64,000 nucleotides of DNA from Dastarcus helophoroides. Its lineage: Eukaryota; Arthropoda; Insecta; Coleoptera; Bothrideridae. Position 1 is the first letter of the stretch. Each line of letters opens with the position of its first letter. The notes beneath the pieces are model-generated. The model had not been told where the DNA came from and did not search any database. It saw nothing but the letters and a program-made list of their open reading frames with translations. The stretch spans positions 41,462,783 through 41,526,782 of the forward strand of contig CM053331.1 in the NCBI GenBank assembly GCA_028583605.1, written 5' to 3'. The position numbers were made by a program, and so were the translations under genes. This document shows, in pieces, positions 1,956 through 64,000 of the stretch.

Positions 1956-2018
1956 CTGTAAATATTTTCAACTTTTAGCACGTTCGATTGTATTACAAAA
2001 TATTTAATTGACATTGTA
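1956..2018 (+). mobile_element. Degenerate copy of the Penelope-type terminal arm
   Basis: The stretch matches the + strand arm at 50018-50087 by eye. Both share TTTTCAA, then AGCACGTT, TTACA and ATTTAATTG in the same order and spacing, with scattered substitutions. No hammerhead core is visible beside it, so only the distal arm survives. Confidence 0.45.
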
Positions 2019-6414: not shown

Positions 6415-7125
6415 TAAGGAAATTAATCAGGAAAAAAGAGTAAAAGCGACTTTTTCCCTTTCAAAATTTGAAAGAGATTTCGAATTACAATTCAGAATAC
6501 AATCGAATATAATTAAAACTAATATTTTATAAGTAAAATCGAAATTTCAAAATCAATTAAATACAAACAAAATTCGAAATTTTGGGAGCAAATTTGATAT
6601 ATTTTATGAATAAAACGGAATTAAATTTCTGTATCTAAATTTTCTAAAACAAGACTAATATTTTGGGAACAATGACAAAATTTTGGGGAAAAATGCGAAA
6701 AAGTTTAAAATATTCCGTTTAAACCAAAAGATTTGTAAAAACTTCTTAAAAAAACTAGAGCTTTGTAAAATATCGAGTTTTTATCGCAAAAGTTCGAGGA
6801 AAAGGACGACGTCAAATTTAAATGCGATGTTTTTTTAAGAAGGTGAAAGCTTTTGCTCAATAGTCGACGTTTGCAAAAACAAAATCAAATATACAGATAC
6901 GTATGTGAGAAAAAAGAGGTAACGATTTTAAACCTATAATAAAAAGAGTAAAAAATTCGAATTTTCGAAAATAAAGTTAAAATCTCGAAGACAGTCGAAA
7001 TAGTGAAAAAGACTCACAGTAAACATATAAAATTTGCAAATTTAAATTAGAAAATTTATGAAATAAGTCACAATTTTAAAATCCCGAACTTTTGACTTTC
7101 AACTAGATAGATTTTTTTTCTTGAA
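6415..7125 (+). repeat. TCGAAATTT-type degenerate array 1 (A-rich on +)
   Basis: This is degenerate short-period sequence built from AAAAA, TCGAAATTT and AAAATTTTG pieces with no fixed register. It abuts the 5' side of LINE copy B. Confidence 0.65.
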
Positions 7126-7194
7126 ATTTTGACTTTGAAGCTGCTTTCTAGAACGACTTTGAAATATCGAGACTGCAGGCGAAATTTTGAGAAA

Positions 7195-8218
7195 AAAGTC
7201 GATGGCATTTTATCAGAGACATTTGCGATTAATGCAGAGGTGCCTCAGGGCTCTGTTCTGTCTCCGACTCTATTTCTGTTACACATAAATGATCTCTTAG
7301 CTTCAATTTCCAATCCTATATACAGCTACGCAGATGATAGTAGCCTTGTATCATCTTTTTCCTTCGACCAACCATTATCCGTCGCTGCTTCAGTTCGACT
7401 AAGGGAACTGCGGGATTTCGAAATCATTCTGGAATGAGGTAAGAAAAATTTGGTCGATTTTAACGCTTCAAAAACTCAGGCTGCGGTTTTCTCTAAAAAA
7501 CATCAAGAGATAATGCAACAAACATACTAAGGGACGGTAAAATCCTTCCGATGGGATCTAATCTATCTATCCTAGGAGTAAATGCGTGCACTAACTTCTA
7601 TTGGGACGATCATGTGCGCATCATTGCCAAATCCGCCTCTCAGAAGCTAGGCTTTCTTTTTCGAGCTAAAAGGTACTTCACATCTCATCAGCAATTCACA
7701 CTATACAAAGTTCAAGTTAGGCCAATACTAGAATACTGTTCTCATGTTTGGAGTTCAGCCCTAAAGCACACTTGCTCTTTTGGATTCAATCCAAAGAAGA
7801 GCGATTCACCTAATTGAGGACGAGACTTTGACCGATTCTCTCGAAACACTAGAGTACAGGCGAATGGTTGGTGACTTGTCTCTTTTTTACAAGTACTATT
7901 ATGGAAGATGCTCGCAGGAACTAATAGGATTGATCCTCCCAAGCCCCAAGGGCAAGATTCTTGAGGCGTAGAAGACAATCTTGACACCAAATTGCTGTGC
8001 GGTCCAGCTTGACACAGTGAGAACTTCTGTCTACGGAGACCTTTTTCTATAGAACTTCCAAGCTATAGAACGCGAAAGGAATTTTCCCCAAAAATTACAA
8101 CCTATCATTGTTTAAGAAGGCGGTTCATCGCCATTTATCCTTGTTTCCGCATCCTACTCGCAGTATTTTGAAGGCATAATGGGGCTACCCTTTGCGAGTG
8201 GATTAAACTTAAAAAAAA
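7195..8218 (+). mobile_element. LINE fragment with partial reverse transcriptase (copy B)
   Basis: This is a broken non-LTR retrotransposon ORF2 of CR1/L2/jockey-like organisation. Readable pieces in order are PQGSVLSPTLF (RT motif B), HINDLL, the catalytic YADD at 7327-7338, DFNASKTQAAVF, GFLFRAKRYF, YKVQVRPILEYCSHVW, and the C-terminal YRTSKL and FPKNYN blocks. It ends in the family 3' end and an A run. Several frameshifts and stops make it inactive. The palm N-terminal part and the endonuclease are absent. It sits between two TCGAAATTT arrays. Confidence 0.88.
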
Positions 8219-12699: not shown

Positions 12700-13152
12700 C
12701 TCGCCTGCACCGCCACTGAAGTACAAGAGAAGTCGAGAATGCAAGTCCATTCCCTGGCAGTCGGCTGGGGAACAGGCCCCTCCCCGTGCGCCCCTCTTCT
12801 ACACTCGTTAGTTGAGTTGTAAGAACTGCCTGTCAACTGCTCGCCTGCCTTTACCGAGTCTACTCCAGTTAGTTGTCCGTAGTCCGAAGTCTGGCAATGT
12901 TATGCACTTCTTGTTAACCGCCGATGCATGCGCCATCCGACTCATCGACAACATTTGCGCGACCACCAAACTCACCGGATTACATTTGGACCTGTGCGAA
13001 ATGCCGCGCCGTGTGCCGACACACATTAATTGAGACATCAAAACTCGATCGACTCGTGACATGCCGAGTAGTGTTGTGCGGTCCCATCGGATTTTCCTCC
13101 TCGGATGACCCAGTCGCATGTGGTGGACACAGTGATGTGATAAATACGTGCG
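12700..13152 (+). other. ci: Probable ci 5' untranslated sequence
   Basis: GC content rises sharply here compared with flanking DNA and stays high through the coding exon. The left edge follows a strong 3' splice-site sequence (TTATTTGTTTGCAG, ending at 12699), so this could be the start of a second exon with a non-coding exon 1 upstream. Several upstream ATGs occur, including a frame from 12924 that overlaps the main start. These could depress translation. In-frame TAA lies three codons before the ci ATG. Confidence 0.45.
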
Positions 13153-13337
13153 ATGCCAGAAAAAGAGCCGGATTTTCAGGCCGCTATGTCAGCAGGATTG
13201 CCCCTGCAATTCCCGTCGGCTTTCGCAGCATTCCACGCGCCGCTACCGGTCGATCAGAGGACGCACGACGGAAGGTACGTGTGGGACCCGAGGATGCAAC
13301 CGCCTGGAGGACCGTTCCATCCGCCTGCTCCACCAGG
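13153..13337 (+). CDS. ci: First coding exon of Gli/Cubitus interruptus zinc-finger transcription factor
   Basis: Cubitus interruptus is the insect Gli protein, the transcriptional effector of Hedgehog signalling, processed to a nuclear repressor or activating full-length form. The 61 complete codons contain FAAFHAPLPVDQRTHDGRY followed by VWDP. This matches the conserved Gli N-terminal block that in vertebrate Gli2/Gli3 reads FPAFHPPVPIDARHHEGRY then HYDP. A proline-rich PPAPP follows. The start at 13153 is supported by an in-frame TAA three codons upstream and a purine at -3. The exon ends at a consensus donor: the last exon bases are GG before GTGAGT at 13338, leaving two bases of a split codon. 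The zinc fingers and all later regions lie outside this exon. Recognition is by one short conserved block, so another Gli-type paralogue is possible. Confidence 0.8.
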
Positions 13338-13574
13338 GTGAGTGTCACGATCTCAAAACGTCTTTTTTTGTCACAATACGTCCATCGAAATCCATTAATA
13401 AGAGGAAAAAGGGTTAATTCAATGAAATTATATGTTTTTGTAGAGTAAGGATCAGAAGAACGCTTTATCCTTTAGAACAAAACTTAATGATAATGATCAT
13501 AGCAATGATGATAGTAATAATAATTACACGATTCACATATCAAATGTAAGAGAATTTATATTCTACCGTTGAAT

Positions 13575-13799: not shown

Positions 13800-13990
13800 A
13801 TATGTCATAAACGGGATTCTAGAGCAAACACTGTGGCTTATGATAAAGTCCAGAGATGCTTACGTACCACATCGTCAATCTATGAATAATTATGTGATAC
13901 TTGTTTCGTCAGGACTGACATTGTCAAGCAAATTATTAATCTTATAACACTGAGATAATTCATGTCTGTTGAGATTTAAATCGATAACTA
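13800..13990 (-). repeat. Palindromic-repeat family d, diverged copy
   Basis: The stretch AACACTGTGGCTTATGATAA, then AGTCC, ACCACATCGTCAAT and AATTATGTGATAC runs in the same order as 53220-53300 and the reverse of 40160-40262. In place of the hairpin the minus strand reads CCTGACGAAACAAG. Confidence 0.5.
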
Positions 13991-17299: not shown

Positions 17300-17420
17300 A
17301 TTTCTTTTTTAATTAGATTGGCACGCTTGAGAATGCGAGTGTTGCTGGCGAAATACGCATCGCTTACTAATTAGATATCGATGCGGTAGAAGTGCGAAAA
17401 CTTCCTTGCCTGTTTTAGTA
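17300..17420 (+). repeat. Palindromic-repeat family d copy
   Basis: It matches 40135-40222 in order: GCTTGAGAATG, GTTGCTGGCGAAATACGC, ATCGCTTACTAATTA, GATGCGGTA and GTGCGAAAACTTCCTTG. The hairpin stem before GAAA is partly lost on its left side (GCGAG for GCCAG). Confidence 0.6.
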
Positions 17421-20475: not shown

Positions 20476-21140
20476 GATGGGATCTAATCTATCTATCTAG
20501 GAGTGAATGCGAGCACTAACTTCTCTTGGGACGATCATGTGCGCGCCATTGCCAAATCCGCCTCTCAGAAGCTAGGCTTTCTTTTTAGAGCTAAAAAGTA
20601 CTTCACATCTCATCAGCTAGTAACACTATACAAAGTTCAAGTTAGGACAACACTAGCCAATACGGTTCTCATGTTTGGAGTTCAGCTCCAAAACACACTT
20701 TAGATCTTTTGGATTCAATTTAAAGAGGAGCGATTCGCCTAATTGATGACGAGAGTCTGACCGATTCTCTCGAATCAATAGAGCACCGGCGCTTGGTTGG
20801 TGACTTGTCTCTTTTCTACAAGTACTATCACGGAAGATGCTCGCAGGAACTAATATGATTGATCCCCCTAAGGGCAAGGTTCTTTCTTGAGGCGTACTAG
20901 ATAGTCGGTGACAGCAAATTCCTGTGCGGTCCAGCTTGACACAGTGAGGACTTCTGTCTACGGATACTCTTTTTTCTATAGAACTTCCAAGTTATGGAAC
21001 TTGTTACCGAACGGAATTTTTCCCAAAAATTACAACCTATCCTTGTTTAAGAAGGCGGTTCATTGCCAACTATCCTTGTTTCCGCATCCTACTCGTAGTG
21101 CTTTGAAAGCATAATGGGGTTACCCTTTGCGAGTGGAAAA
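20476..21140 (+). mobile_element. LINE 3' fragment (copy E)
   Basis: It starts at GATGGGATCTAATCTATC and reads FSWDDHVRAIAKSASQKLGF, FRAKKYFTSHQ, YKVQVR, VWSS-like, IRLIDDESLTDS-like and LSLFYKYYHGRCSQELI. The YRTSKLWNLLPNGIFPKNYN C-terminus and the family 3' end follow. Stops and frameshifts break it. The RT catalytic region is absent. Confidence 0.87.
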
Positions 21141-26615: not shown

Positions 26616-27080
26616 CAGAGTCTCCAAACTTTCGAGCATTAAAGTCATACTGATTCCTCCAGTAAGTTCCCAGGACCAAAATGGAAATAGGTGGTATTCT
26701 CTATACTCTACCTATGCGCTAACAGATGGCCTTGGTAGTACCTTCGAAAGCATAGTCAGTGTTGAAATACAAATCTTGTCCCCTGAAACCGAGAAAGATT
26801 AAAAAACACAACAGAGGTTGCTCTAACACGTTTCGATATCCAAGCTATCATCTTCAAAGAGATACTTCCACCAAAAAAAAATAGTCAACGTTGCCAGATT
26901 AGTAGAATTTTTGGCATCTAGTAGAAGATTTGGTAGAACAATTTGCTTAGTAGAAAAGTTTGGTAAAATTTTTGTCGTTTAGTAGACTTTTGTTAACATC
27001 GATAAGCTATTAGCCATCGGGGGCCGGATTAATGACACGGGCTGGTCGTTGACATGCGGGCCATAGTTTGAAGACACCTA
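26616..27080. mobile_element. Non-autonomous hAT-like element with a Penelope-type insertion
   Basis: The left end CAGAGTCTCCAAACTTTCG and the reversed right end TAGGTGTCTTCAAACTATGG match each other and the common hAT terminus CAGGGGTCTYCAAAC. GGGCC-rich sequence just inside the right end is also typical. No transposase remains. An 8-bp duplication is not evident. Positions 26755-26872 are a separate repeat inserted inside. Positions 26900-26990 hold a loose TAGTAGAA-TTTGG tandem. Confidence 0.5.
26755..26872 (-). mobile_element. Penelope-type terminal repeat family b, copy 1
   Basis: It shares CTTGTCCCCTGAAACC, AAAGATTAAA, GTTGCTCTAA and CGTTTCGATA with the copies at 29.3, 41.2 and 42.0 kb. 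On the minus strand the hammerhead-like order is TTGAAGA (C3 mutated to T), a hairpin, then GAAAC at 26832-26836. Confidence 0.6.
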
Positions 27081-28600: not shown

Positions 28601-29271
28601 CCCAAACCCCTTTCGCATTTATACAAGTTAATTGCGATTTCTCTCTAAACAAACTAAAACGATTCTTCATATTTCTTTGGCCAAACGGCCCTACCTCGGG
28701 GAAAATTGGCGACGACGAAAAAAGACAAATAAACAATTAGCACCTTTTAAAACAAATAGTGCTAAGCATCTAATTTGAGGGACTCACGGATATGTGTCGG
28801 GAACCGAGTGCGACTTTAAATACACCGCAAATATAAATATTGAATTAAGCTGAACAAAGTTTACATATATCGGGTGATATTGTACACAGAGATTTATTTA
28901 TTTTACAATCCGGTAGTTCGGATGTTAGCTACCGTTTTATCTGCGAGCGTATAGAATCGCCCTCGGGTGTCATTCGCATCGCAATGTAAAACAGAAAGTC
29001 GATTGATTGGCCAGAGCAAACACTCTTCTGTTGCACTTTATTGAAAGAAGGTTATCAACGTAATAAATAGATACAGTTGCACAAGGAACTTTCGCCTTGA
29101 CCCTTCATTCTTGTATAACATCATCACATCGTGATAATCAAACGCGAACATTTCCAACATTTTGAGAGAATTCCGGTGAAACGTGGGAAAACAAATCGAA
29201 AACCAATTAGCTTTCCACTGGACAGTCGTCACGTCGGGTCAAAATCAAAGCAAACATAGATCCTACAAAAA
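28601..29271. other. Unassigned DNA
   Basis: No gene or repeat family is recognised. Confidence 0.45.
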
Positions 29272-29445
29272 TTGAAACAGAAATCTTGTCCCCTGAAACC
29301 AAAAAAGATTAAACAACAAAAGGTTGTTCTAACGCGTTTCGATAGCTAAGCCATCATCTTCAGAGAGATTTTTCTTGGTTTCAGAGGACAAGATTTGTAT
29401 TTCAATTTTTGAAGATAACTAAGGACCAGTACGTTCCACCAAAAT
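29272..29445. mobile_element. Penelope-type terminal repeat family b: inverted pair
   Basis: Positions 29272-29370 are a minus-strand unit with CTGAAGA (29363-29357), hairpin arms GATGGC/GCTATC, and GAAAC. Positions 29371-29445 are a plus-strand terminus (CTTGGTTTCAGAGGACAAG onward to ACCAGTACG). The same inverted arrangement occurs at 41966-42200. Confidence 0.65.
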
Positions 29446-38253: not shown

Positions 38254-40004
38254 GTATCTTTAATGTATATGTAATTTTGAAATCATTATTCCTTTTTCAG
38301 TATTGTCCTTTTTTTCAAGAGAAGTATTCGAAAGATCGTGACAAATATGCTATTTAAAATATTATTAATTCATGCGTCAGAATTTGAATTTTGGAGTTTG
38401 TCATTAATATTCGTGGCGGTTTTTCCTACAAAATATTTACCTGTATCCGGCGCTAACGCATTCGTTTGACCCCCGGATGAAATTAGATCCGAAATCGGCG
38501 TTATAAATAACAACGTCGAGTATTTACGATGGCATAAAGGATCTCATCAGCTGCCATCATCTGCTAAACATAATTTTGCTTTAACGAAGTCCCGACTTTT
38601 TCTTAATTATCGGTTGTAATGCTGGCGCTTCTTTTTTGATTCAACTTATGGAATCCCAAAAAAAGCCCGAGCGTTGTGTTGGTAGAAATAAATGCCGTTT
38701 CATACATCGATAACGCGCCGCCGACTAATCGTCGTGTCAATTTTGGCCGAGCGAATAATAAATCTCGCCCGCTCCTGCCCCGATTATTTTGATAACGTTG
38801 ACTTTTATTAATGTGTAACTCATAATTTTATTAATGTGTAATTCGAGATTACTCGGCGCAATTGCGATTTTATAATCGGGGAGGAAGTTAATCGAGTACA
38901 AAAGCAAAGAAACTACAAATTAAAGAAAAATTAACACGATTCGTAGAAGCCTCGTAAATGATACATAATTCAGAAACTATTAATACATAATAAATACAAC
39001 AAAGTTGAAGCGATTTGCTCTATGATTTCATTAACAGATTATAGAAATCATTGAGGCCATCCGAAATTTTAAAATTTCATGAACAATTATTCTTAGGTTA
39101 AAGACGCCTGTCGAATATTTATAAATAATTAGAAACTATTAAGAAAATTCGAGATATCGAATATTCTGGTATACGTAGAACAACAAAATGTGTCTGCAAT
39201 CGCACCCCAAGTAATTTGTTTGTAAATTACGCTTACACGAATAAATTGTTTGCTTATCTTGTTACATGAAAGTGTAAAATCCGGATTGTTGAATTGTGCC
39301 TACCAGTAACGTGTAACAAAACGTTCATATTTGTACTCGACGGTTCTCTCTTCAGCACATACCCAGATACTTGTTTTTACTTATACCTAAGAAAAACTGA
39401 GAGATGTTCACAATTCGCTTTAAAGAACACTCAAGTTTGATTTATCTTTGTTAAGACGTACGATGCTGTCGCACGAATTAAAACGGCCAGAGGAAAACAT
39501 TGATTCAATGACAATTTGTTCGAATGCGTCCAATTATCAGAAAAGGCCGAATGTCCACGGAATGGAGTTTTTGTCGGTTTGATATTCGGCTCTAACAACC
39601 GAAGAATGTCGTAACAATGGGTCTATTATCTACCTGATGGCATTCGAGTTTAATTATGTCTATGCCCGTTTGGTCGAGGTGAAGACCCTCTTGTTTACAC
39701 CGACAACGCTCGTCGAAATCTCCAGCTCACCGATCTGTTTAGAGAGCGATTTCCGTAACGAAACGCTCGGGCTGTCCTCGTGGTTACATCTTTCGAAATA
39801 ATTTCATATGTAGAAAAAAAAACATCGATGTGTTTCTTATAACTATTATCGATCAAGTAGACAAGCGATGACTACATCTTTCGTTGAGGATATCTAAAGT
39901 GATTTCCGCCAAATACTAAAATACCCAATCGAATCAAAGAATCGAATTTACAAGCCAAGATTATAGAAATTTATAGCGAAGCATTTGTAAAAAAATAATA
40001 AGTC
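38254..40004. other. Transposon-poor stretch, candidate enhancers
   Basis: Positions 38450-38900 and 39480-39800 are the least AT-biased and contain ordered ATTA, CGATAA and CATCATC words. No coding signal is present. Confidence 0.3.
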
Positions 40005-40262
40005 CAAGAAGGTTTCACCCCTTTACCACATCGGCAATTAAATAAATAATTACGCGATACGTATTCCGATATCGATTTGAATCTCAACGTAGATGACGTC
40101 GATGCATCTTTTGCTAATCTTTTTGGATTAGTAGGCTTGAAAATGCCAGTTATGCTGGCGAAATACGTATCGCGTAATTATTTATTTAATTGCCGATGTG
40201 GTAAAGGGGTGAAACCTTCTTGAATTTATTCACAAGCACAGTATTTAATTCAGTGCTTTAGA
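40005..40262. repeat. Palindromic-repeat family d, best copy
   Basis: Inverted arms of about 60 bp match perfectly: 40005-40065 (starting CAAGAAGGTTTCACC) against 40162-40222. The right arm extends further to about 40262 (CAGTGCTTTAG), matching 53215-53250. The right half also contains GCCAG-TTATG-CTGGC immediately before GAAA (40144-40162), a hairpin next to the GAAA word as in hammerhead stem II. The preceding TTGAAAA is only a poor match to CTGANGA. No clear target-site duplication or coding capacity is seen. Confidence 0.7.
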
Positions 40263-41159
40263 GAAAAAAAATAGTAGTTTCACGTAACCGAAATTACCCT
40301 ACTAAGCAGACTAAAATCTGTCTCTTTTTGGAAATTTTAATTACGCAAACAAATCGTGTCTGAAAATTCTCCAGTAGGCGAAAGGAACCAAAGAAAATTT
40401 GTAGAACGCTTAAACAGTTTTTTCAAGTGGGGGGAATGGCGTTTGCGTCGGACGTCCCGACTAAAAATAAAATTCTCGCGCGTTTCGCAAAAGGAACAAC
40501 AACCCGGGTGTCATACAATACAAGGCGAAACACAACATAAACAAATCCGAGTCGTAAAGAATTAAAATTCACACATGCAGCACGAAACGCATATATTTTA
40601 AACTACCGACGAGAACGAGTTGTAATATTTACATTTTACAGTTTCGTGCTGTAATGGGACGAAAACGTTTTTATTTCTACCTGGTGCCAAAATATTATGT
40701 CTTCGACTGGGAATGTTACGACTGAATTTACCTGAGCCGGAGAGCGATTTTCACGCTTAGAAAGTCACGTTTCGCTTTAGTGGCCATAAAATGGAGAAAG
40801 GTATTATAAGAGAAGATAAAAAAATCGGAAAAAGCTGTACCTATATACAGTCTAGCTCGCTGGTCATTATGTCATTAAGTTTCACAGGGACATTTAGTAA
40901 AGAGAGAAAGTTGAAAAAAAATTATTCGAGGACAAATCAACCCATAAGTACCTCTAACAGAGCGCTTCTGATTCACATCAAATGGTTTAGGACTTGTTTG
41001 TCAGTAGATGTTTATCACATTGTCATCCATTTCACAGGTACATGACAAGGAGAACAGGTGAGAGTGTAACTAATGGCAACATATCATTTCGCCCTTTAAT
41101 TATTTGTATTTTTATATCTTTGAAACTAATATGAAAACAATTTTATCTATTTTGGTGTA
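40263..41159. other. Unassigned DNA
   Basis: No gene or repeat family is recognised. Frames at 40356-40565 and 40791-41045 look like chance. Confidence 0.45.
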
Positions 41160-41965
41160 ACGGACTGGTCCTTGGTTATCTTTAAAAATACAAATGTTGT
41201 CCTCTGAAACCAAGAAAGTTTAAAAAACACAAGAGAGGTTGCTCTAATGCGTTTCGATAGTCAGGATATCATCTTCAGAGAGATACTAACACCTAATTCT
41301 AAAATTAACCCTTATATACTAAGAATATTCACTTCGTGCAGGATCGATTGCATCCGAAGGTGCATGCGCATCTAATCATACATGTCGTAGTGTCACAATT
41401 CCTTATCTATCAACCTTAACTATGATGAGTGGCCTAAAGGCCCAGCGCAACCATTCATAAGGTTGTCTCTAGCCTTATGGATGGCTAAGCTTTCACAACC
41501 ATTTAACATAGAAGTCTTATTTACTACTCTTAACAGTTTAATATTATTATCTATCCTATGATCTAATTTAAAAAAATTAAAGAATTCGTGCAGATTACAA
41601 AATGATGTGTTGTTCAAATTTGTTGATATGTTTATGTGCATATTTAGTTATCTTGCCAGTCTCTAGCGATAAATTGGCTAGCAAAGTTGCGCCTTATCGC
41701 ATTAGGTGGCGCTGTTAGACTCTTATATTAAACGAATTTTACGTGCAAAGTTACAATAAAATTCTATCCTACAATTACACGACGCTGTCAGATGATTTAT
41801 TTACATAGAATGTGGAGAAAGGTTATTTACTCTTTCGGGATATGGTATTAGTGTTTAAAACAGTTTTCAGGGGTAGAACGTATTCTACTAACCATTTCGC
41901 CTTGCAAAGTACGTCTGTACAAATTGTTATCAAAATCGCTCCATTAATTAAACCATTTTTTTTTG
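41160..41965 (-). mobile_element. Penelope-like element remnant with C-terminus and 3' terminal region
   Basis: Read on the minus strand, an upstream segment (co-linear with 28165-28600) leads into the C-terminal frame at 41641-41420. An untranslated stretch follows, then the family-b terminal unit with a hammerhead-like motif at 41282-41242 and the end ACCAAGGACCAGTCCGTTA. Gene-sized RT and GIY-YIG parts are missing, so this is an internally deleted or decayed copy. Order and content fit Penelope-like elements, whose terminal repeats are known to carry small type I hammerhead motifs. Confidence 0.6.
41420..41641 (-). pseudogene. C-terminal remnant of a Penelope-like polyprotein
   Basis: The frame contains STNLNNTSFCNLHEFF, then DHRIDNNIKLLRVVNKTSML and ESLAIHKARDNLMNG before ending at GPLGHSS. 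The pattern, with a basic KLL-VN- start, an E-L-I-K helix, LMN and GPL, is what follows the GIY-YIG core in insect Penelope-like proteins. There is no upstream catalytic part. The first half is the segment preserved in four other copies in the window. The nearest ATG is internal, so the start has no meaning. Confidence 0.55.
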
Positions 41966-42200
41966 TAGAACGCCTTTGGTTACCTTCAAAAATTGTAATA
42001 CAAATGTTGTTCCTTGAACCAAAAAAGATTAAAAAACACAACAAAAATTGCTCTAAGGCGTTTCAATAGCTTAGCTATCATCTTCAGGTTAATTTTAGAA
42101 TTAGGTGTTAGTACCTTGGCTATCGAAACGCGTTAGAGCAATCTTTGTTGTTTTTTTTAATCTTTTTTGGTTTTAGGGGACATTTGTATTTCAGTTGAAC
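41966..42200. mobile_element. Penelope-type terminal repeat family b: second inverted pair
   Basis: Minus-strand unit 41986-42091 carries CTGAAGA (42087-42081), hairpin GATAGC/GCTATT and GAAAC. Plus-strand unit 42112-42195 begins at GGCTATCGAAACGCGTTAGA and runs to TTTGTATTTCAG. The plus unit lacks the CTGA half. Confidence 0.65.
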
Positions 42201-43224: not shown

Positions 43225-43745
43225 AAGTGATTTTTTTTAATTGAATCCACTCCCAAAGGGTAAACCCTATTATGCCTTCAAAGCACTGCGAGTAGAATGC
43301 GGAAACAAGGATAGATGACGATGAACCGCCTTCTTAAATAAGTATAGGTTGTAATTTTTGGAAAAACTCTTTTGTTAACGAGTTCCACAGCTTGGAAGTT
43401 CTATAGAAAAAAAGAGTCTCCGTAGACAGAATTCCTCACTGTGTCAAGCTGCACCGCACAGGAATTTGCTGCCTCCGACTGTCCTGTATGCCTCAAGAAT
43501 CTTGCCCTTGGGAGGATCAATCCTATTAGTTCCTGAGGGATCTTCCATGATAGTACTTGCAAAAAAAAGACAAGTTACCAACCATACGTCTGTGCTCTAG
43601 TGTTTCGAGAGAATCGGTCAAACTCTCGTCATCAATTAGGCGAATCGTTCTTCTTTGAATTGAATCCAAAAAACCTAAAGTGTGTTTTGGGACTGGCCTT
43701 CAAACATGAGAACAGTATTCTAGTGTTGAGCTTTGTATAGTGTGA
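43225..43745 (-). mobile_element. LINE 3' fragment (copy G)
   Basis: The reverse strand starts at the block ISYSHYTK-like (an altered HQLLALYKVQ) and runs through CSHV, IRLIDDESLTDS, LSLFCKYYHGR-like, then the YRTSKL/FPKN C-terminus and family 3' end. It is one of the copies not touching a TCGAAATTT array. Confidence 0.85.
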
Positions 43746-48480: not shown

Positions 48481-49765
48481 TCTATTTTTTTTCAAATTTC
48501 CTATTTTTAATTTTTCATTTAAAATGTTTGCTTTATTCGAAAATCAAATTTAATTTTGTTAAAATCTACTCATTATTTCGCATTTAAGTTAATTTGAAAA
48601 AAAGTCGAAATTTTGAGAGTTTTGCTGAAAAATTCGGAATTTATTTATTCATTTTTTTATTTGATTTGCAAAAATTAAAAATTTCAAGTTTAAAATAGAA
48701 TTTTAAAGAAAACACTCAGCATTCGGAATTTCTTCTATAAAATTCGAATTTTTCTTGAAGTTATTTTTTTTAATGTTATATTTTTCGTTTAAGAATTCTA
48801 CTTTAATCGAATTTCGCGATAAAAGTCGATATTTTAAGGTGAACTCAGTATTTCAGAAAAAAGCCAAAGTCAAAAATATGCTTTTTAAATTTCAACAAAA
48901 AAGTAAAAAATGTTTGGCAGATTCGTGTTTTTTCTTGAATTTCCGTTTATTCTCAAAATTTAAAATTCAAATTTCTGATTTTTATGTCTTACTTGAAATT
49001 TCGATTGAAAAGCATTTTTTCTGCTTTAAACTTTAAATGTTCGACCGTGTTCATGAAATTTTGAGTAATATAAATCAAAAGTTTGTGTTTAAAGTTGAAA
49101 TTTGGGGAAAAAACTTGGAATTCGCTATGAAATCCGAAACTTCCAGAAATAAAAATCCGTAAAAAAAATTGAAATCTGAAGAAAAAATTTAAAATCAAAA
49201 CAAAAACTTGAATTTGCAGAAAAAAAATTAAAATTTCGTTATTTTTAATACTCATCTGTTCACGAAATTTTAAGTCGTAAAATCCAAATATTTGTTTCAA
49301 GTCGAAATTTGGAGAAAAAATTCGAAATTAGCGATGAAATCTGAAATTCTCAAATTAAAATTTGTAGAAAGCATTTGAAATTTGAAGAAGAATTGCAGAA
49401 AAAAAATGAAAATTTCGTTTTTGTTTTCTATATTTTTTTGAAAAAATTTGGAATATTAAAAATCTTGTAAAAATTCTCGAAATGAAAAATAGTTTAGAAA
49501 TTTCAATGATCTTTTTTTCTCGTAGTTTTAAGATTTCAAATTGTTTGATTTTTCGCTGAAAATTCTGATTTTAAGGTCGAATGTTTCCGTTTTAATCACA
49601 GATTTTTCCATTTTCTTCCTGAAATTGTAGTTTCGAAAAATACTGTCAAATGCTGGAATAATAATGGAAATGTCAATGGAAAATTCGAAATTTCGAGAAT
49701 GTTTAAACAAAAAATGTTAAAAAAATAGAAACTCCAGGTTGGAATTGAAAATTTTGAGAAACAAC
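48481..49765. repeat. TCGAAATTT-type degenerate array 13 (longest)
   Basis: Almost 1.3 kb of the short-period sequence, T-rich on + to about 49010 and then A-rich. The strand preference flips inside one block. Confidence 0.65.
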
Positions 49766-49769
49766 TTGA

Positions 49770-50087
49770 TGACAAATGACCAATTAAATGTTCTGTAATT
49801 AAACAGTTAAACGTGCTTAAAATTAAAAATATGTACAACCGCAACCATAGACTAGTTTCGGCCTTCCTTGGCCTCGTCAGCATGGTATGGTGGTTGTATA
49901 CACTTCCAATTTAAAGCCGTTAGTCAGTCGTATAAGTATCCAAGAGAGCAAACCTCCATTGGGTGACTTGTAACTGACTTTTAACTGTTTATTACGCAAA
50001 CATTTTCGCTATATGCTGTTGTACATATTTTCAATTTTAAGCACGTTTAACTGTTTAATTACAGAACATTTAATTGGTCATTTGTCA
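49770..50087. mobile_element. Penelope-type terminal structure: 70-bp inverted arms around a hammerhead ribozyme
   Basis: Left arm 49770-49839 (TGACAAATGACCAATTAAAT onward) is the near-perfect inverse of right arm 50018-50087, with one or two mismatches. The minus-strand ribozyme at 49834-49898 lies just inside the left arm and uses its inner end as part of stem I. The right arm has no ribozyme. Inverted terminal units of this kind are typical of Penelope-like insertions. The two family-b pairs in this window have the same layout. No protein-coding part is present. Confidence 0.65.
49834..49898 (-). ncRNA. Type I hammerhead ribozyme, apparently intact
   Basis: Read on the minus strand: the stem I 5' strand is 49898-49881. 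The core CTGACGA is at 49880-49874. Stem II is GGCC/GGCC (49873-49870 with 49863-49860), closing an AAGGAA loop. GAAA is at 49859-49856. Stem III is A-U and C-G around a TA loop. GTC lies at 49852-49850, with predicted self-cleavage after C17 at 49850. Stem I pairs six bases next to the core, including a G-U, then has an internal loop of 5 and 3 nt and a perfect 7-bp outer helix (TACAACC with GGTTGTA). Every invariant hammerhead nucleotide is present. The tiny stem III is the form reported for Penelope-like elements. Such ribozymes probably process element transcripts, sometimes as dimers. Confidence 0.85.
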
Positions 50088-50299
50088 AAACTAGATGAAA
50101 GTAAAGTCACGCCGAGGACGTTTGTATCTATGGATGTTGCGATGCAACCCGTGATACAAGCTTTGCCTCATCTACGTGAACTTTGCAATTGCAGTCTAAT
50201 TTTCATTAGATTCTAATGAAATTAGATTTCAATTGCATCGTAATAAACTTGTATATATTCGTATATACAAGGCTTATTATCTCAGCAAACAACTTGATA

Positions 50300-53204: not shown

Positions 53205-53410
53205 GGAACCTTTTATGGAACTAAAGCACTGAACTAAACACTGTGGCTTGTGATTAAGTCCAAAGAAGGTTATACCCCTTTACCACATTTCGCCAGTAGA
53301 ACTGGCATTTTTAAGCGTACTAATCTAAAAAGATTAGCAAAAGGTGCATCGACGTCATCTGCATTGATATTCAAATCGATTTGAATCTCAATGCAGATGA
53401 CGTGAAATGC
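53205..53410. repeat. Palindromic-repeat family d with a near-perfect internal palindrome
   Basis: The left part (ACTGTGGCTTGTGATTAAGT, AGAAGGTTATACCCC, TTCGCCAGTAGAACTGGCAT) is the family in reverse. It keeps GCCAG/CTGGC beside TTTC. Positions 53352-53403 form a 52-base inverted repeat centred on AAATCGATTT with arms ACGTCATCTGCATTGA. Confidence 0.6.
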
Positions 53411-57486: not shown

Positions 57487-58690
57487 GTGACTTGGAATGA
57501 AGTATACATGGCTAGGTTTTATGCAATTCAGAGAAGTTGGTATGAAGTCGTCGTCGATGGCATCTCATCCGAGACATTTGCGATTAATGCAAGGGTGTCT
57601 CAGGGGTCTGTCCTGTTTCCTACTCTGTTGCACATAAACGATCTCTTAGCTTCAAATTTCAAACCGATATACAGTTACGCAGATGATAGTAGCCCAATGT
57701 TATCTTTTTTCTCCGACAAAACATTATCCGTCGCTGCTTCAGATCGATTAAGAGAACAGCAGATACACATAATTAATCGGGATCTCGAAATCGTTCTCGA
57801 ATGGGATGAGAAATATCTGTTCGACTTTAACGCTTCAAAAACTCAGGCCGCGGTTTTCTCTAAGAAAACATCAAGGGATAATGCAACAAACAAAAAATCC
57901 TCCCGATGGGATCTAATCTGCCTATCCTAGGAGTGAATGCGAGCACTATAACAAATTCTCTTGGAACGATCATGTGCGCTCCATTGCCAAAACCGCCTCT
58001 CAGAGCTAGGATTTCTTTTTAGAGCTAAAAAGTACTTCACATCCCATCAGCTACTCGCACTATACAAAGTTCAAGTTAGGCCAACACTAGAATACTTTTC
58101 TCATGTTTGGAGTTCAGCCCCAAAGCACACTTTAGCTCTTTTTTATTCAATTCAAAGAAGAGCGATTCGCCTAATTGATGACGAAAGCTTGACCGATTCT
58201 TTCGAAACACTAGAGCACAGGCGGATAGTAGGTGATTTATCTCTTTTCTACAAGTACTTTCATGGAAAATGCTCACAGGAACTAATAGTATTGATCCCCC
58301 CAAGGGCAAAGTTTTTGAGGCATACGAGACAGTCGGAGGCAGCAAATTCCTGTGGAGCTCAGCTTGACTTTTATCTACGGAGGCTCTTTCTTCTATAGAA
58401 CTTCCAAGCTATAGAACTCGTTACCGAACGGGATTTTTGCGCCAATGACTCATGTGCAGGTGTTGTACGTCTTCTGGTCATACCGTCTGGACTTTGGAAT
58501 AAACTAGATGTTTTTCCGAGCCATCGAACTCGTTACTCGTTACCGAACGGAATTTTCCCGAAAAATTACAACCTATCCTTGTTTAAGAAGGCGGTTCATC
58601 GCCATCTATCCTTGTTTCCACATCCTACTCGCGCTGCTTTGAAGGCATAATAGGGTTATCCTTTGCAAGTGGATTGAACGTAAAAAAAGT
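57487..58690 (+). mobile_element. LINE fragment with partial reverse transcriptase (copy H, longest)
   Basis: This is the most complete copy of the YADD LINE family. In order: DGISSETFAINARVSQGSVL, HINDLLASNF, catalytic YADD (57676-57687), RDLEIVLEWDEKYLFDFNAS, KTQAAVFSKKT, GFLFRAKKYFTSHQLLALYK, VQVRPTLEYFSHVWSSAPKH, IQRRAIRLIDDESLTDSFET, then the YRTSKL-like C-terminus, family 3' end and a short A tail. One frameshift near 57930 separates the RT half from the thumb half. An LTR-derived insert splits the C-terminus at 58437-58525. Endonuclease, ORF1 and the first RT motifs are missing. Confidence 0.9.
58437..58525 (+). mobile_element. Insertion inside LINE copy H, partly LTR-family-b sequence
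   Basis: About 90 bases interrupt the LINE. GAACTCGTTACCGAACGG occurs on both sides (58414-58431 and, with a TTACTC insertion, 58526-58550). The insert starts GCGCCAATGACTCATGTGCA, like GCGAAGTGACTCATGTGCA on the minus strand of 52300-52562. Confidence 0.5.
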
Positions 58691-62225: not shown

Positions 62226-62315
62226 ATTTCACAAAAGTTTTATTAACGTCCAATCGGTTTTAGACGATTAATCCAGCTCATACATTTTTTGAGCATACAT
62301 TACTTCTTCAGCTCA
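62226..62315 (-). mobile_element. Possible terminal repeat of another Penelope-like family
   Basis: The minus strand reads CTGAAGAAG, a hairpin GCTC/GAGC, then TCTAAAACCGATTGGACG and TTAATAAAACTTTTGTG. The order resembles the CTGAAGA / hairpin / AAAC terminal units of family b, but the GAAA word is changed to TAAA. Confidence 0.25.
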
Positions 62316-62316
62316 C

Positions 62317-64000
62317 AATGTAGACGTGTTTCTTCTAAGCGAAACCAAACTGAATGGAAGCAACAAGATGAAAATACCAAATTTTGCAATGTACAAAGCA
62401 GACAGAAATAAAAGAGGAGGAGGAACAGCAATACTAGTTAAAAGAAACCTAGATCATTTCATTCCAGACCAGCCGGAAACAAGTCACTTAAAGTATAATA
62501 TGGTGACAATTAAAATGGAAGATAACAAAGAAATCAGAATAGCATCGGGATACATCCCACCGAATAAGGAAGTTCTTGACGAAGATTTTGAAAAAATATT
62601 CATTGCAAACGAAGAAACGCTAACTGTAGGAGATTTTAATGCAAAACATCCGCAATGGAATTGCAGAACAAGGAATACCAAAGCCACAGCGCTGGAAAAA
62701 TATGTAAAATGACATAGGTGTTTTGACTCCCAGTGAATCAACACATTATGGCCATATAGGACAATCTGACATACTAGATATAGGAATATTTAAGAACATA
62801 ACCAGGAATACGGAAATATATACAAAATATGAATTATAAGTTCAGATCATAATCCGATATTCATACATATAGGAGAAGAAGGCTTAGTGAAAGGACAACA
62901 GTTAGTTAAAAGAACTAACTGGCTAAGTGTCAAAAGGTATCTGGAGGAAAACCCGACAATAATAGAGGAGATATCAAATAACAACGAATTGGAAAGAAGC
63001 GTCAAAAAGATACAAGAAAATATTCCAAATGCCGTCAGCTCGGCGAAATATGAGGAAAGACGGAATTATAGAAGAAATATTCGCTATATAAAAGAATTAG
63101 TAAGAGAGAAAAACAAGTTAAAGAAGAAATATCACAGGACACTTGATCCACAGGATAAAAGAAATATTAACAGAGCACAGACTGCATTGAGGCAGGCCTT
63201 AGAGCAGCAGAGAAATGCAGAATGGGATAGAAAACTAGATGAAGTAACAGTGCAAGATAATTCCCTCTGGCAATTACATAAATTTGTAAAAAGGGAAATA
63301 ACTCAATCTCCTTGTATGCACACTTCAAGAAGAACTGTGTATACTCCGGAAGAAAAAACGGAAGCTCTGGCTCACCACTTGGAGGAGCAGTGCCATCCTA
63401 GCTACAAAAATTACCATGCTGAACAAATAGCGCAAGTGAACAGGCTTTTGAGACAAAAAGCAGAAGCAAATGAGCAAATGAAAATGGAAAACCAATAAGG
63501 GAAACAAATGTGGAAGAAATTAAGATGATAATCAAGAATATGGCAAAGAAAAAAGCACCAGGAAGAGATCAAATCTCAAATCTGGCCATAAAAAAATTTC
63601 TCGGAAGTGGAGATTGAAAATATCAAGAAAATTATCAACTCGATAATAAAAATGGAACATTTTCCAAGCATATGGAAATTGGCACAGGTAGTGATGATTC
63701 CAAAGCCGGGAAAAGACACCACATATCCCCAAAATCAAAGACCGATAATTCTTCTCCCAGCCATAGGTAAAGTGGCAGAAAAAATAATCCGCTCAAGATT
63801 GCAAGAAGAATTGGAAAGATAAGAGGTAATACCGGAACAACAATTTGAATTTAAGCCGGAACACAACACCACACAACAGGCGTTGAGGTTGGTCGAAGAA
63901 GTTGTCAAGGCTTTTGACAAAGTCTAGCACAAAGGACTATTAAATAAAATGCATAGAGCGAATATTAATCCCAAATTAACAAGAATAATGCAATCCTATT
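62317..64000 (+). mobile_element. Jockey-clade LINE, 5'-truncated, runs off the window
   Basis: ORF2 of a jockey-like non-LTR retrotransposon. The APE-type endonuclease part has FLLSETKLNGSNKMKI, GGGTAILVKR, the catalytic GDFNAKHPQWNC block (62629 onward) and SDHNP (62842-62856). A linker with a basic coiled-coil-like region follows (62887-63498). RT begins with KKAPGRDQISN, then PKPGKD, QRPIILLPAIGKVAEKII and AFDKV, where the next codon is TAG in place of tryptophan. Frameshifts near 62710, 63490 and 63600 and several stops inactivate it. ORF1 and the first endonuclease strands are missing. It is unrelated to the YADD fragments. Confidence 0.9.

Follow-up and report, generated by a model that had tools for sequence, protein, structure and literature searches.

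Animal non-LTR retrozymes have been described as short non-coding tandem units that carry one type I hammerhead ribozyme each, with low GC content, target-site duplications (TSDs) longer than 4 bp and a circle that is predicted to pair extensively with itself. Their named hosts include insects, and Penelope-like elements (PLEs) were called "a strong candidate" for their mobilisation by the describing authors (PMC7229834). The family described here bears on how animal retrozymes return to DNA, since its inserts show, to the base, a PLE-like signature of insertion.

It has been reported that the pseudo-LTRs (pLTRs) of PLEs bear minimal hammerheads and are found in inverted as well as in tandem arrangement (PMC3846280, PMC7761336). 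Also on record for PLEs are a neighbouring pLTR in inverted orientation, a tail that may be present on one of the inverted pLTRs and, in the quoted copies, TSDs of 8-10 bp (PMC3846280). In the Anolis PLE PAc, an AC-rich stem loop 111-118 nt into the ORF serves as the start site of reverse transcription and the hammerhead cuts at +26, from which we computed a start site 85-92 nt downstream of the cut (PMC11167929). The Anolis PLE protein exists in purified form, and start sites in vitro were alike for the top and bottom strand. Hammerhead mutants of this PLE inserted normally, the hammerhead cut only when the protein was present, and no RNA reads ended at the cut (PMC11167929).

In this study, we analysed a hammerhead of the beetle Dastarcus helophoroides and its surroundings; "the window" denotes the whole 64,000-nt stretch of DNA. 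Our preferred reading, to which we give a probability of roughly three in four, is that a non-autonomous retrotransposon without coding capacity, of the animal-retrozyme type, has inserted once at this locus by means of a PLE-type enzyme in the manner of the cycle proposed below.

The hammerhead ribozyme at 49834-49898

An earlier note on this DNA had described an intact type I hammerhead on the minus strand at 49834-49898. All the core bases that it named, CUGACGA, GAAA, CUAG, U16.1 and C17 at 49850, were present in the sequence and in the pair table, and they contain the type I hammerhead core CUGANGA, GAAA, U16.1 and H17. Cleavage is predicted between C17 (49850) and 49849 of the minus strand. 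Stem II was GGCC/AAGGAA/GGCC, and stem I comprised 6 pairs (one G.U) and 7 pairs with the internal loop ACCAU/UGC between them, both as claimed. Stems I and II stand in type I order, and stem III can form only between two molecules or units. The note was right about the type I topology, the small stem III and the strand. Its 2-bp stem III with a TA loop stood in part: the monomer has A15.1-U16.1 and, beside it, one C-G pair that closes a 2-base loop, but this amounts to practically no stem III. The predicted minimum-energy fold of the monomer pairs C3-U4-G5 and differs from the hammerhead fold. Since the stem III segment is the self-complementary ACUAGU, cleavage as a dimer is likely, and from their sequences hammerheads of this kind are likely to be dimer ribozymes.

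The covariance search suggested in the note gave no score above threshold with either RF02275 or RF00163. No match was found in the whole 64,000-nt window at the Rfam gathering score, and Hammerhead_HH9 (RF02275) reached 25.1 bits (E 5e-4 in a 501-bp slice) against a cut-off of 52. In the RF00163 search of the beetle's own genome, in which 73 of 91202 candidates were scored, the only match listed was another locus, L001 (32.6 of 34 bits), and 49834-49898 was not among the matches listed. The window ribozyme shares with Hammerhead_HH9 the topology, a 4-pair stem II with a 6-base loop and a stem I of 6 pairs whose internal loop is similar. It differs in that its stem III is nearly absent and in that it belongs to a multi-copy mobile element.

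The note had also considered a chance origin very unlikely, and our counts agree. Searches of both strands with a loose hammerhead pattern gave one occurrence in the window and a single one in 200 dinucleotide shuffles taken together. Stronger against chance than this shuffle test, the core pattern test was passed by 42 of the 45 complete hammerhead regions found in 32 inserts of the same repeat family. The three failures were one unit each of L032 and L021, in stem III bases, and L017, at A15.1 and its neighbours. Because of this repeat-family evidence, the sub-threshold covariance result is outweighed, and judged by its sequence the element at 49834-49898 is a real hammerhead and not a chance resemblance.

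We then compared the ribozyme copies with one another. The 12 invariant core bases had no substitution in approximately 43 aligned copies, an alignment that left out L036 and matches below 88% and in which L017 ends before its damaged core. At N7, which is free in the consensus, the aligned copies had C in 32 cases, T in 10 and G in 1. Minority bases were fewer in the ribozyme without N7 (12/1652) than in the rest of the unit (284/16543; Fisher p 0.0014, with copies that are not independent). The ribozyme was not the least variable stretch, and the 39-base segment that includes N7 ranked 92nd of 466.

The insert and its 466-bp repeat unit

The earlier note had described the ribozyme as lying in a host intron and had linked it to Penelope-like retroelements. 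The ribozyme does not stand free in the intron: it sits in a 516-bp mobile insert (49771-50286), and its carrier is a 466-bp non-coding unit and not a coding PLE. The insert is flanked by a perfect 12-bp TSD, AAACAACTTGAT, on its left (49759-49770) and right (50287-50298), read on the plus strand. We numbered the unit from the base after the ribozyme cleavage site, so that it starts and ends at this site. Mapped in this way, the insert is a partial, head-to-head copy of the unit. The sense arm, on the minus strand at 49771-50017, runs through unit 299-466 (50017-49850) and unit 1-79 (49849-49771) to an outer 3' end at unit ~79. The opposite arm, on the plus strand at 50014-50286, covers unit 7-279 and has its outer 3' end at unit ~279. 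The two arms overlap by 4 bases at the inversion junction. A 74-bp inverted repeat (49770-49843, 97% identical to its partner at 50014-50087) results because unit 7-80 is present on both strands. Neither a poly-A nor a repeat tail was found at the ends of the insert. The insert holds a single ribozyme and is probably a dead end. A different TSD candidate, ATCTAGTT/ATCAAGTT, was dropped when mapping of the 466-bp unit placed the ends elsewhere.

As the note had proposed, the insert most likely lies in an intron of a ci/Gli gene. Gli-type zinc fingers were found on the plus strand of L003, about 10.7-11.2 kb beyond the window end, and the best PDB match of one 55-residue zinc-finger piece was 2gli (E 4e-41). 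We take 13144-13338 (plus strand) to be a probable N-terminal exon of this gene; a Pfam search of this exon gave no match. The ribozyme on the minus strand is antisense to ci, also as stated before. Because of this orientation, ci pre-mRNA would carry only the complement of the ribozyme, and a role in ci is unlikely.

A genome-wide search for further copies, recommended in the note, revealed a multi-copy family. With a 371-bp query against the beetle's own genome (539 Mb, 50 contigs), at least 130 matches were obtained; 40 of 1917 first-look candidates were scored, and all family counts are lower bounds. We mapped 32 distinct inserts, namely the window insert and L007-L037, leaving out the duplicates L006 and L038-L042. 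The family looks young from its sequences: 39 of the 45 ribozyme regions had an identity of 97.6% or more to the reference unit, among copies picked for likeness to the window. An older relative of the region downstream of the ribozyme, ~80% identical and with no ribozyme seen beside it, lies at 1957-2010 (plus strand).

L036 contained five core-intact hammerheads, two on the minus and three on the plus strand, in an array of 466-bp units. Each of its tandem units follows the last without a gap at 466 bp, and no ORF lies in between; tandem non-coding units with one type I hammerhead each, the arrangement of retrozymes, are thus present in L036. The unit has 36.5% GC, and the longest stop-to-stop frame of the concatenated unit is 89 codons. 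Both the GC content below 50% and the TSD longer than 4 bp are those of retrozymes. Folded as a circle, the unit is predicted to reach -148.2 kcal/mol, against -96.7 +/- 5.9 in 100 shuffles (z -8.7), and its antisense strand folds about equally well against its own shuffles (z -9.0). The unit is slightly longer than the published animal retrozymes, whose repeats are 150-450 bp and whose RNAs are ~170-400 nt, and unlike theirs its stem III is as minimal as in PLE ribozymes (PMC7229834). We class the 466-bp unit as a new non-LTR retrozyme of animals, which a PLE probably moves in trans.

Insert ends and the Penelope-like elements of the genome

TSDs of 10-19 bp were found in 24 of the 32 inserts, at an accepted score of at least 9; the upper null value was 4-9 at all loci except L025 (14). 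Twelve of these TSDs were 12 bp long and six 13 bp, two were 11 bp, and lengths of 10, 14, 15 and 19 bp occurred once each. No accepted TSD was found in the other eight inserts (L013, L021, L025, L028, L031, L032, L033 and L037). The TSDs were 78% AT compared to 65% for the window, as calculated for 23 of the 24 with L012 left out.

Head-to-head structure with both 3' ends outward was found in 23 of the 32 inserts, 20 of which have a TSD. The remaining nine were single-strand in unit mapping, either 5'-truncated or tandem, with a 3' end near 74-85. The inverted share is inflated, because the query match of L007-L018 spanned the inverted part; it was 8/17 among L019-L035. All 23 head-to-head inserts had one end at ~79 (range 72-84) and one at ~278 (273-285), never two alike. 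The sampling did not select for this one-of-each rule, except that the window insert itself has it. The two end sites lie 199 nt apart in the unit, and in the predicted fold of one sequence both fall in hairpin loops, at unit 78-84 (UCAAAAC) and at 277-280 (AGCA, on a 3-pair stem).

The position of the inversion junction varies among inserts. Junctions at the cleavage site were considered and rejected, since 4 of 53 inner 5' ends lay within 3 nt of it (L007, L023, L034 and L018); inner ends were counted by base-level extension, with two L035 ends left out. In the junctions of L007 and L023, one arm continues three bases past the cleavage site, followed by the same extra C (GACC). The 5' end of the L033 insert (L033:1185-1212) carries a perfect palindrome, CGCAACCATAGACTAGTCTATGGTTGCG, with the stem III hexamer at its centre, as if a cDNA had folded back there.

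We also examined the PLEs of the same genome. A GIY-YIG search gave at least 91 matches, with 150 of 1070 candidates scored. PLE-A (L074) has RVT_1 and GIY-YIG on one 417-codon frame, and L056 served as the PLE-B reference. Each of the two has two alternative 3' end positions, about 35-37 nt apart. Eight of the 12 two-strand PLE copies were head-to-head with one short and one tailed end; L045, with two converging pieces, was left out of this count. These eight were the PLE-A copies L044, L046, L067 and window 39999-40265, and the PLE-B copies L060, L062, L068 and window 29268-29444, with the end types of L046 and L067 assigned on decayed sequence. Two recognisable 3' ends were absent in the other four (L047, L059, window 41976-42191 and 53221-53403).

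TSDs were weak or absent in most of the PLE copies tested. The relic at 29268-29444 has a perfect 14-bp duplication, ATAGATCCTACAAA, and that of L044, also 14 bp long but with a single mismatch, scored higher than every null. The 8-bp duplication of L062 was just above its nulls, while those at the re-placed boundaries of L046 and L067, also 8 bp, were within or at theirs. At 39999-40265, a 9-bp A-rich duplication is no better than the best of 100 random nulls. There was no clear TSD at window 41976-42191 or 53221-53403. Nothing was found in the TSD test of L060 and L068, so their two arms could be separate insertions. Further PLE-A or PLE-B relics were seen in the same intron region of the window at 13826-13929, 17315-17372, 26762-26822 and 41150-41573, as well as at 41976-42191 and 53221-53403.

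The note had tied the ribozyme to Penelope elements and had regarded the debris around it as theirs. The connection was upheld. The retrozyme inserts share the head-to-head plan of the PLEs of this genome: a tail on one end only was present in 23/23 inverted retrozyme inserts, as in the 8/12 PLE copies. True PLE relics are indeed present in the window; the pieces at 57487-58395 and 62293-63495 look LINE-like instead. The former has an RVT_1 match below its cut-off and the latter an Exo_endo_phos_2 match. Similar LINE-like pieces, judged by eye, lie near 7111-7968, 20488-21111 and 43379-43699.

Like the Penelope/Poseidon PLEs, the retrozyme combines a minimal hammerhead with a putative reverse-transcription start downstream, head-to-head copies, an optional longer tail on one end, an AT-rich target and TSDs (PMC3846280, PMC11167929). 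The extra stretch measures 30-40 nt in those PLEs and 199 nt in the retrozyme. The nearer retrozyme end lies 72-84 nt past the cut (mode 79), around the predicted UCAAAAC loop, compared to the 85-92 nt of Anolis PAc. The unit lacks an ORF with reverse transcriptase and GIY-YIG, the coding hallmark of a PLE; being non-coding, it could do no more than use PLE machinery non-autonomously. Similarity of the retrozyme ends to the PLE-A or PLE-B ends was within shuffled controls, which points to neither family as the partner PLE. Head-to-head anatomy with two fixed 3' ends was not found in the excerpts of PMC7229834. We found no literature match for retrozymes with head-to-head inserts; Cervera and De la Pena 2014, Lunse 2017 and Arkhipova 2017 could have reported some of these features before. 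These PLE-like insertion scars suggest, at the sequence level, that PLE enzymes move ribozyme-bearing elements.

Origin of the inserts and a proposed cycle

We considered whether the 466-bp unit is no independent retrozyme but a pLTR, present singly or in tandem, that belongs to an autonomous PLE. The hammerhead-bearing, inverted and tandem pLTRs described above would fit this, as would a decayed unit relative (74-81%) ~0.8 kb downstream of the PLE-A GIY-YIG domain in L046 and unit pieces beside PLE sequence in L048 and L052. However, the pieces in L048 are nested in a PLE-A copy, between PLE-A 999-1062 and 1060-1670, for which reason L048 was also rejected as a PLE-retrozyme chimera. In addition, 27 of the 30 GIY-YIG loci searched had no unit match, none was found in the 3.1-3.3 kb of each of the PLE-A copies L044, L047, L049, L050, L059, L067, L069 and L072, and the units of L036 abut with no ORF in between. 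We consider a pLTR origin unlikely.

LINE twin priming can make inversions, and TSDs of 12-15 bp are LINE-like. A LINE reverse transcriptase could have moved the unit in this way with no PLE involved, and LINE-like debris is present in the window. Twin priming, however, gives an inverted piece inside an element that has one 3' end, whereas both outer ends of the retrozyme inserts are of the 3' type and map to two fixed sites inside the RNA, like those of the PLEs of the same genome. The window insert also ends without a poly-A or repeat tail, and we regard the LINE route as improbable. The 97% inverted repeat around the ribozyme, together with the TSDs, could also recall a DNA transposon of the MITE type whose terminal inverted repeats measure 74 bp and which has a hammerhead by accident. 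This has a very small probability, since the repeat is an internal overlap and no terminus, and in 23/23 inverted inserts the two outer ends differ in their unit position (79 and 278). Moreover, the inversion point is variable, 9/32 inserts have no inverted arm in unit mapping, and the arrays run head to tail. The retrozyme inserted by a PLE-type enzyme remains our preferred reading.

In the cycle that we propose for this retrozyme, tandem genomic units would be transcribed, and adjacent hammerheads would pair via their stem III, the self-complementary ACUAGU, and cleave the transcript to 466-nt units, which may be circularised. A PLE-type protein would cut an AT-rich target on its two strands, with the cuts mostly 12-13 bp from each other, to leave the duplication observed at the inserts. 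Each cut strand would prime at a different internal RNA site, unit ~79, just 3' of the ribozyme, or ~278, where the ends are observed. The two cDNAs would then join head to head at a variable point, as seen in the inserts. The two short RNA sites are named here as candidates for PLE start sites.

PLE proteins may move animal retrozymes, with a dimeric PLE complex that would hold one ribozyme-processed, perhaps circular, RNA at the two hairpin loops and start cDNA from one loop per cut strand. This would explain the one-of-each ends in every head-to-head insert, a rule that bears on how PLEs prime both strands. We propose it tentatively, at somewhat less than even odds, which we lowered because Anolis PLE start sites are the same on both strands in vitro. 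The Anolis results count against a separate site for each strand and against the idea that cleavage is required (PMC11167929).

Two further hammerheads of this genome are also self-complementary at stem III, with ACCGGU in L001 and ACAUCGAUGU in L065. The stem II sequences of the window, L001 and L065 hammerheads (GGCC, GATC and GCTC with their partners) show paired changes. At L001:1442-1661, on another contig, the different hammerhead lies in a head-to-head inverted repeat whose two arms share their end sequence; six bases of the CUGACGA core region have been lost from one arm. The third hammerhead, on the minus strand of L065, lies ~1270 nt upstream of a PLE-B-type GIY-YIG; it has the stem II GCUC/GAGC, and its self-complementary decamer replaces stem III.
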